From Ignavibacteriae bacterium HGW-Ignavibacteriae-3 (GTDB lineage Bacteria; Bacteroidota; Ignavibacteria; Ignavibacteriales; Melioribacteraceae), in NCBI GenBank assembly GCA_002839795.1, contig PGYS01000012.1, forward strand, positions 1-39,459: a DNA stretch of 39,459 bases, given 5' to 3'. The notes under the pieces were generated by a model. The model was not told the DNA's origin and did not search any database. It worked only from the letters and a program-made list of their open reading frames with translations. Positions within the stretch are counted from its first letter, which is position 1, and every line of letters starts with the position of its first letter. The position numbers and the translations under genes were made by a program. This document shows, one piece after another, positions 8,639-10,944 of the stretch.

Positions 8639-9589
8639 TCATTTTTTCAGGAAACGTAAAAATTCCTGAACCGGCCTTCCTTCAAATTTTGCCCTGACTA
8701 ATTTAAACCCGTCGCCATAAACAGGATCGGGATTCTTTTCTAAATTTTTAATCTGATCATTTCGGGAAGGATCATTTATTGATTTCAGATAGAGGTAAGA
8801 TACATAATTACAACTGCCCTCAATAATTTCCTCAGAATGATTTTCTTTAGCATTCTCCACAATCCATGCGTGCATCAGCTCATGGGCAATTGTAGATGCA
8901 ACAACAATCTCGGGTACACCGTTCAGCACATAAATCATATGGAAAGTGGAAGTGTTAATCAATTTATTGTTTTCATATTGAGTCTTTGTCTGAGAATCGC
9001 AATATCCCTGACCCAGATCTCCGGACCCCTTGAATTTGTTCATCAGAAAGATCTTATCGACGCCTGATATGGACACTTTCTTCATATCCAGATATATTCC
9101 AAATGAAGCCAGCCTTGAAGATACACTGCTCAAAAGCTGTTTGAATTTATATTGCTCAAACACTGCCAATCTGAAGCAGACATTACAGATATTTCGTCCG
9201 TCGTTATATTTTTTCCCTCCGCCCGTTAGCTGCTGGCAAATAAGCCGGCTGCATATCTCACATTTAGCCAATTCCGAGCTGTGCTCTTTATGAAACTTAT
9301 TCCCGTAAGTATCGATATTATATGTTCCTCTTAACGGTTTATCACATATCGCACACTTCGGAATAACATAATTTTCACAACAACTTTCGTGATACTTTTT
9401 ATTTTCGAAAATTATAAACTCTCCGGATATGATTTTACCGCAGTAGGCGCAGCGCAGTCCTTGAATTCCGGTTGAACCTTCCTGTGCGCTAATATTTAAA
9501 TATGCCACCGATAGAAAAAGAAATATCAGCAAAACATTTTTGAATGCCATTGGATTATTTTTTTGATTCAATTTAAGTAAAACCGTCAT
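8639..9589 (-). CDS. Secreted LIM-like zinc-finger metallopeptidase, DA1-type
   Basis: This is a predicted exported zinc protein of 316 aa. A signal peptide (MAFKNVLLIFLFLSVAYLNISAQ) begins at Met14, so translation from 9550 is an alternative start; neither start has a clear ribosome site. Two LIM-like zinc modules follow. The first is C47-x2-C50...H67-x2-C70 with C79-x2-C82...H100-x2-H103. The second, ribbon-like, is C110-x2-C113...C135-x2-C138. The C-terminal part has a gluzincin site HELMH at 236-240 and an EG pair at 257-258 that supplies the third ligand. This order (LIM, LIM-like, HExxH..EG with MHAW) is that of plant DA1 peptidases and their bacterial relatives. In plants DA1 cleaves ubiquitin-pathway regulators; here the substrate is unknown and export implies a periplasmic or surface role. 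Confidence 0.82.
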   Translation of the reverse strand: MTVLLKLNQKNNPMAFKNVLLIFLFLSVAYLNISAQEGSTGIQGLRCAYCGKIISGEFIIFENKKYHESCCENYVIPKCAICDKPLRGTYNIDTYGNKFHKEHSSELAKCEICSRLICQQLTGGGKKYNDGRNICNVCFRLAVFEQYKFKQLLSSVSSRLASFGIYLDMKKVSISGVDKIFLMNKFKGSGDLGQGYCDSQTKTQYENNKLINTSTFHMIYVLNGVPEIVVASTIAHELMHAWIVENAKENHSEEIIEGSCNYVSYLYLKSINDPSRNDQIKNLEKNPDPVYGDGFKLVRAKFEGRPVQEFLRFLKK

Positions 9590-9696: not shown

Positions 9697-10623
9697 CTAT
9701 TCGGTGATTTTTTTAAATGACAGTATTGCGAGCATAACCGCTATTTTCTTTGCTTTATCAGCGTCGTAAGCCACAAATGAATGTTTGATGGAATCACTAT
9801 CTGCTATATATCTATCTGTACCGGCAACTAAACTCGCCATCTTTGTTTTCATTAAGTTTCCTGTTGCAAACAGAGGCGCGCCTTCCATTTCGATGTAATA
9901 CGGGGCTTCTCCATTATCAAAGTTATTTTCATTCAGAGAATATTTAATAAATCCTACCGGCTGAAAAAAAAATATAGGAACAGTGATACCGAAACTTTTT
10001 TGAACTTGTATATTATTTTGCCTGGCGGTGTTGAATAATAGATCTGTTAAAGATGAATCGGGGTAACTGAGTGCTTTTCTCGGCCACGAATCATCCGGAT
10101 CGATCATCATTGCGCCGCCGTCATTATATGCCCCGGAGGAAACAATTAGCGATGAATCTCCAATTGCTTTACCGAATAGTCCGCATGTTCCGATATGAAC
10201 AATATACTCAACGCCGAGTGCTCCAAGGATTGCAGCTTGGGTCGAAATTCCTCCCGCTCCCGGAAGTCCCGGATTAATTATAAAATTAACTCCGATCTTT
10301 TCGGACTTGATTATATATAAATAATTCGGATTCACCTGACCGAGCTGTATTTTTTTTATTTCGCCATCCTTAATGTTTAGAAACGATAAATATTCTTCAA
10401 TCTGAGTATCGTGAAGTATTATAGCAAATTTGGGGAGCGAATCAAGTTCATGATTTTTGAATCTTGTTTTTTTCAGATGATCGGCGTAGGAGTAAGGTTC
10501 AATTAGTCTTTGCGATTTATCCGTTTTAATATATTCCTGAAACGGACCTCCTCCGTTATAGTTGCTCGGACTTTTGCAGGAAGTAGATAAGATTAATACT
10601 AAAAGAAAAAAAAATTTTTTCAT
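9697..10623 (-). CDS. Lipoprotein with nucleoside phosphorylase fold
   Basis: This predicted lipoprotein begins MKKFFFLLVLILSTSCKS, with the lipobox Cys at residue 18. I choose the ATG at 10623 (308 aa), because AGAGGAAA stands 8-15 bases upstream; the frame also opens ten codons earlier, at 10653. The body resembles the PNP/uridine phosphorylase superfamily. It has an INPGLPGAGGISTQAAILGA loop, the core strand YIVHIGTCGLFG with the following acidic turn, and YYIEMEGAPLFA, whose EMEG matches the ribose-binding EME(G/A/S) of the family. A late VAGTDRY holds the likely catalytic Asp region. Cytosolic phosphorylases carry no lipid anchor, so an envelope nucleosidase or sensor role is possible but unproven. 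It lies 107 bases upstream of the DA1-like gene. Confidence 0.75.
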   Translation of the reverse strand: MKKFFFLLVLILSTSCKSPSNYNGGGPFQEYIKTDKSQRLIEPYSYADHLKKTRFKNHELDSLPKFAIILHDTQIEEYLSFLNIKDGEIKKIQLGQVNPNYLYIIKSEKIGVNFIINPGLPGAGGISTQAAILGALGVEYIVHIGTCGLFGKAIGDSSLIVSSGAYNDGGAMMIDPDDSWPRKALSYPDSSLTDLLFNTARQNNIQVQKSFGITVPIFFFQPVGFIKYSLNENNFDNGEAPYYIEMEGAPLFATGNLMKTKMASLVAGTDRYIADSDSIKHSFVAYDADKAKKIAVMLAILSFKKITE

Positions 10624-10944
10624 TTCGTTTTTTCCTCTGAATAAATTATTCATCGGCTGTAATTTACAACCTGCAAATCAGTAATCCAGCATCAGGAAGT
10701 AAAAATAAAGGGGAATTGGCGATAAGAACACGCCACTTTCATTTGCTATCGGCACGCGTTACCTTAAAATTGATTTTTCAGTCTGAAATTTGAAATTTTG
10801 ATTGAATTCAATAATTAGTTAAGGAATTCAGAAGCATAAATCGCTTCTCAGATATTGTGTCGATTTTTGAACTCTATGAGAAAATGACCGATCCGGTGTT
10901 GCGAATAATTTATTAAAAAATTAGCTCAAATCGGCCATATTTAT
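10624..10944. other. Non-coding interval between PNP-like lipoprotein and hppA
   Basis: This divergent intergenic stretch holds no convincing gene or tRNA. Around 10719-10760 short complementary runs (GGCGATAA with TATCG, and CGCC) could fold, but no known riboswitch was recognised. The hppA promoter lies at its right end. I found no clear promoter for the minus-strand lipoprotein gene. Confidence 0.5.

Follow-up and report, generated by a model that had tools for sequence, protein, structure and literature searches.

A bacterial DA1-like zinc peptidase with an export-type N-terminus and no canonical LIM domain

The window, a stretch of 39,459 nucleotides from an Ignavibacteriae genome, carries a gene whose product is, by profile and motifs, a bacterial DA1-like zinc peptidase. 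Judged from the sequence, a predicted fold and the analogy with plant DA1, the protein is likely, with a probability of about 0.7, to be a Sec-exported, probably periplasmic zinc endopeptidase in which a zinc-finger module presents substrates to the active site or gates it. The gene is real: its open reading frame, encoding 316 residues, is exactly that given by a sequence-only reading of this DNA, which had proposed a secreted DA1-like peptidase with LIM-type zinc fingers. A single copy of the gene was found in its own 3.36-Mb genome. The features of gene and protein are collected in Table 1.

Table 1. Features of the DA1-like gene and its product, with positions in the window.
Feature	Position	Strand	Basis
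DA1-like zinc peptidase gene	8639..9589	minus	ATG start, 316 aa, stop codon included; ORF and PF12315
Export-type N-terminus, residues 1-35	9485..9589	minus	Hydropathy rule and alignment
Single zinc finger, C47 C50 H67 C70, beside the missing LIM	9380..9451	minus	Sequence
LIM-like double finger, C79 C82 H100 H103 / C110 C113 C135 C138	9176..9355	minus	Conserved ligand columns and spacing
Peptidase domain, residues 146-315	8645..9154	minus	PF12315 on 202-272; predicted gluzincin-like fold, about 142-316
HELMH catalytic motif, residues 236-240	8870..8884	minus	Sequence; H236, E237 and H240 invariant in 22/22
E257, proposed third zinc ligand	8819..8821	minus	Invariant in 22/22
YGDG motif, residues 291-294	8708..8719	minus	Y291, G292 and G294 invariant in 22/22

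In a Pfam search, residues 202-272 of the protein matched the DA1-like profile PF12315 with E 5.3e-14 and 52.6 bits, where the curated cut-off is 25. The outcome by which the sequence-only reading would have been refuted, a lack of similarity beyond the zinc motifs, thus did not arise. The match covers positions 65-135 of the 213 in the profile, and in some relatives positions 163-211 are matched as well. The profile was found at E up to 0.01 in all 22 aligned relatives, among which the invariant columns include H236, E237, H240, W242, E257, G258, Y291, G292 and G294. The peptidase residues that had been picked out from the letters are thus borne out, with HELMH and E257 spaced as HELMH-x16-E and the YGDG motif intact. 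A wider set of relatives was assembled from 87 frames, less three unrelated HExxH proteins; the 84 that remained all contain HExxH...EG, which follows from their selection by these motifs. YGxG, which played no part in choosing the set, is present in 83 of the 84, anywhere in the protein. Removal of four fragments (L105, L108, L109 and L114) left the 80 relatives used for the tree, the hydrophobicity measurements and the LIM counts.

An AlphaFold2 model built with the 22-row alignment had a mean pLDDT of 90.4 and a pTM of 0.80. When the model was compared with known structures by VIA-align, the best rows were oligoendopeptidase F (2h1n, Z 10.8 over 149 residues, rmsd 2.8), insulin-regulated aminopeptidase (IRAP, 10.4), ACE (9.9) and ERAP1 (9.9), and nearly all of the rows listed were M1/M2/M3-type peptidases, aligned over residues of about 142-316. 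These Z values exceed the 7 to 8 usual for models without a clear match, and are still within reach of helical models. ERAP1 and IRAP belong to family M1, ACE to M2 and oligoendopeptidase F to M3. Foldseek returned no match to the model at E ≤ 0.001, its best rows being LIM structures at E of about 0.007. Similarly, a family profile compared with solved structures found LIM domains, with paxillin best at 4.6e-15; no DA1 chain was among the matches listed (the best 60 of 91, and 8 in another search). By its HExxH...E motif, together with the gluzincin-like fold predicted by the model, the protein is a predicted gluzincin. It resembles the M1, M2 and M3 gluzincins in its predicted fold at 5-15% identity in the listed alignments, but differs from them in having a LIM-like zinc module in front of the peptidase.

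Plant DA1 limits organ size. According to the accessible portion of PMC5322733, it consists of UIMs, a LIM domain, a LIM-like domain and a peptidase, and its zinc peptidase is latent, with cleavage dependent on the HEMMH site; a C274Y substitution in the LIM-like domain abolishes both ubiquitylation and peptidase activity, and the part played by the LIM-like module in activating the latent peptidase is left open there. As excerpted, PMC9546594 reports that the membrane receptor kinase TMK1 is cleaved on its cytoplasmic side by DA1-family peptidases; further accounts of DA1 are found in extracts of PMC7141810 and PMC12864510. Bacterial relatives of DA1 as such are already in print, since Dong et al. 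2017, in the section available, noted a high similarity to Roseiflexus proteins, citing Burroughs et al. 2011. In a literature search, no biochemical data or experiment on any bacterial member were found.

The protein encoded in the window shares with Arabidopsis DA1, DAR1 and DAR2 (PF12315, clan MA) the DA1-like domain, the HExxH motif with a glutamate some 16 residues further on, and a LIM-like module before the peptidase, the latter being equated by position and spacing and not by alignment with a plant sequence. The sequence-only reading had gone further, seeing in it the same architecture as in plant DA1. This holds for the LIM-like module and the peptidase but not for the remainder: whereas the plant enzyme is cytosolic, the bacterial protein has an export-type N-terminus, no UIM was found and there is no canonical LIM domain. 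UIMs were sought with Pfam at a limit of E 1, though the HMMER filters can miss short motifs; only residues 36-46 separate the proposed cleavage site from the first finger. We class the protein as a member of PF12315 but not as a DA1 as that name is used for plants. A search of its genome for E2-family proteins gave no match and the 14 control genomes were equally silent, so this result is uninformative as to the absence of a ubiquitin system.

Support was also obtained for an N-terminus of the export type. The N-terminus contains a hydrophobic stretch with a 10-residue Kyte-Doolittle mean of 3.29, followed by an A-Q junction that appears compatible with signal peptidase I, with the putative cut lying between A35 and Q36. 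A hydrophobic stretch is similarly placed in the aligned relatives entered from their true start, and AQ, SQ or GQ junctions are common at the corresponding place. By the home-made hydropathy rules on which the export call was based, for this protein and for the family alike, 66 of the 80 relatives have a hydrophobic N-terminus, and 57 of the 80 are at 2.7 or more. The 66 include nearly all rows from Ignavibacteria, Zixibacteria, Calditrichota and Marinimicrobia, but not most of those from Spirochaetota and Bacteroidales. The 14 rows without one comprise eight from Spirochaetota, two from Bacteroidales, one each from Fusobacteria, Opitutia and a cyanobacterial bin (which has a second copy that does carry a hydrophobic N-terminus), and one from Zixibacteria (L112) in which the upstream stretch is masked. 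A ninth Spirochaetota row (L095) is counted among the 66 but is probably a false positive, its hydrophobic stretch being placed ahead of the probable start. Under a stricter signal rule, in which every ATG, GTG and TTG start is tried, 63 of the 80 have a passing start codon and 17 have none. On the quick tree of the family, at least five changes between export and its absence are needed.

As a control, 284 soluble neighbouring ORFs were measured over their first 50 residues, a procedure similar but not identical to that for the family, where the part ahead of the first CxxC was used, to a maximum of 70 residues. Here 118 reached the loose threshold of 2.0, 71 reached 2.7 and 23 reached 3.29. 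Passing the loose threshold is thus of little weight by itself, and the case for export rests instead on a stretch that is kept in place, with AQ-, SQ- and GQ-type junctions, across most of the alignment. A consideration against export is that fingers rich in cysteine would have to be protected against oxidation once outside the cytoplasm. It is conceivable, if rather improbable, that the stretch stays uncleaved as an inner-membrane anchor, in which case the enzyme would be a membrane-bound processing protease whose fingers and peptidase face the periplasm. Residues 13-31 form one helix in the AlphaFold2 model, and the n-region is long, at 18 residues, and conserved in the orthologue of a congeneric genome; the A-Q junction after the stretch, and its counterparts in the aligned relatives, argue instead for cleavage. 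These observations suggest that several phyla of bacteria use the DA1 peptidase outside the cytosol. A literature search, judged by titles and abstract openings and covering a minority of subscription journals, turned up no account of a DA1 relative that is exported. Burroughs, Iyer and Aravind reportedly linked prokaryotic LIM domains with membrane-associated peptidases in a 2011 abstract; if so, the novelty of export is smaller than it seems. What is new here is that the LIM-like spacing is always present in the 80 bacterial relatives, and that a hydrophobic N-terminus is found in 66 of them, distributed among the groups as given above.

The genomic context was analysed at 73 loci, comprising 72 from named genomes and that of the window. 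No conserved partner gene was present among the clustered neighbours. The peptidase family itself was recovered at 70 of the 73, and the commonest other neighbour, at 13, was a transporter that we take from its sequence to be of the MATE type. It adjoins the gene on the opposite strand at 6 of the 40 loci that were inspected, two of which have no peptidase ORF by the rule used. As these transporter-adjacent loci are all Ignavibacteria-type, we interpret the arrangement as shared gene order and do not propose a partnership. In the window the same-strand neighbours are a phosphorylase-superfamily protein 111 bp upstream and an RlmL-like methyltransferase 64 bp downstream. These are not conserved as a set, for the methyltransferase is retained in one congener, G393, and neither adjoins the gene in four others. 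The upstream neighbour (9697-10653, minus strand; PF01048, 46.7 bits) has a lipoprotein-like N-terminus and is apparently an exported relative of nucleoside phosphorylases.

With neither a substrate nor a partner found around the analysed loci, and with three candidate finger sites and an active-site zinc within 316 residues, the protein might be thought to bind or sense in a zinc-dependent manner on a peptidase fold without cutting, for instance as an envelope zinc or redox sensor. We consider this very unlikely, since no substitution occurs at H236, E237, H240, E257 or Y291 in any of the 22 aligned relatives and a catalytic glutamate would be needless for metal binding alone.

PF12315 was detected in 18 of 395 genomes drawn from the phylum of the window, a count that takes in its own genome; all 18 belong to the order of the window. 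None of 14 control genomes had the profile. A protein search found relatives in 17 of 57 near-relative genomes and the gene is present in 6 of 12 congeneric genomes, own genome included in both counts, some of these congeneric genomes being incomplete. The gene is thus patchy within the genus and not essential to the group; this patchiness and the lack of a conserved partner at the loci analysed are points against the reading favoured here. Of 95 stretches returned by an alignment-based scan of named genomes, 72 were relatives. They came from Ignavibacteria, Zixibacteria, Marinimicrobia, Calditrichota, Spirochaetota and Bacteroidales, with a few bins of other groups. The scan used a single eight-residue pattern and cannot serve as a census. 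A single-sequence scan of genome contigs returned 60 stretches with no relative among them, and none of the 50 IMG/VR stretches matched by one pattern was a relative.

The claim of LIM-type fingers has to be narrowed. The eight ligand columns of the LIM-like module are at least 90% conserved across the 22 aligned relatives, and its spacing pattern is found in all 80 bacterial relatives, this one included. The canonical LIM profile PF00412, however, gave no match to the protein up to E 1, and none in its whole genome up to E 0.1 (4 of 14 controls gave matches). Here, therefore, 'LIM-type fingers' means a single finger and a degenerate LIM-like module, the ligands of which are all present. PF00412 was matched in 19 of the 22 aligned relatives; the other two rows without a match are probably L012 and L024, which were aligned from an internal start and hence lack the N-terminal fingers. 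A strict canonical-LIM spacing pattern is found in 46 of the 80, and it undercounts with respect to Pfam, as L015 and L054 match PF00412 yet fail the pattern.

The syntenic orthologue in G393 shows what is missing. It has 368 residues as against 316, contains a canonical LIM domain at 45.2 bits and is 68% identical to the window protein outside the missing stretch; the downstream methyltransferase is 86% identical, with order and direction kept. A DNA alignment places the extra stretch, of about 52 codons (net about 155 nt), after the putative signal and ahead of the first finger that remains; the frame is maintained. The two proteins are sisters (SH-aLRT 100) within a six-row congeneric set (98), on a tree of the 80 bacterial rows that was quickly made and in which 24 of 76 inner branches are open. 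As G393 and the four surrounding congeneric rows each have six CxxC motifs where the window protein has four, the LIM domain was lost on the side of the latter. That this copy is a decaying remnant, as the loss of some 52 codons with the LIM domain could imply, is still harder to credit, because its frame is open, its ligands and active-site residues are otherwise intact, the rest of the protein shows the identity noted above, and relatives with four CxxC motifs also exist elsewhere (L054, L068 and L084).

For an exported endopeptidase, the most likely role would be the limited cutting of envelope proteins. The zinc module may bind envelope or membrane proteins along extended segments, gate the active site, or both, so that limited cuts would be made rather than free digestion. 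The analogy is with plant DA1, in which the cysteine change in the LIM-like module abolishes peptidase activity. The canonical LIM domain of many relatives would then be an accessory unit for binding substrates or partners, lost in the window lineage, which would have kept its catalytic and LIM-like residues thereafter. Since the LIM-like module was never lost in the 80 relatives, and by analogy with plant DA1, this module is probably coupled to the peptidase, with the canonical LIM as an optional adaptor. Ubiquitin would not be expected to take part, as an exported enzyme would lie outside cytosolic ubiquitin control.

On a broader and more doubtful view, which we offer tentatively, DA1-type LIM peptidases might be bacterial at root, independent of ubiquitin and chiefly enzymes of the envelope, with an essential LIM-like module coupled to the peptidase and canonical LIM domains as swappable adaptors for substrates; plants would have adopted a form of this system and added ubiquitin control. 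If so, the window protein, with its canonical LIM dropped by in-frame deletion, would be a case in which nature has set the two modules apart. A small relative without UIM or canonical LIM would also offer a compact model for communication between the LIM-like module and the peptidase.

Several other loci were of interest in their own right. In the Bacteroidales bin RUG11822 (L115:5977-12032) a short, signal-less DA1-like gene heads a same-strand run that continues with a protein kinase, two VWA proteins (one of which was scanned), a PP2C phosphatase and a MORN-repeat protein; the run resembles the TerY-P triad. In another Bacteroidales locus (L111:52-6735) a short DA1-like gene follows, on the same strand, genes for a conjugative coupling protein (T4SS-DNA_transf) and a DO-GTPase2 protein. 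Near the G393 gene, L116:6883-7425 (minus strand) encodes a small zinc-finger protein that matches the B-box PF00643 below threshold (19.1 bits, cut-off 24.1). Finally, nine Spirochaetota rows (L085, L089, L091, L094-L096 and L099-L101) form one clade (SH-aLRT 99), whose proteins have three CxxC motifs and contain just the LIM-like module with the peptidase. No smaller form was seen.
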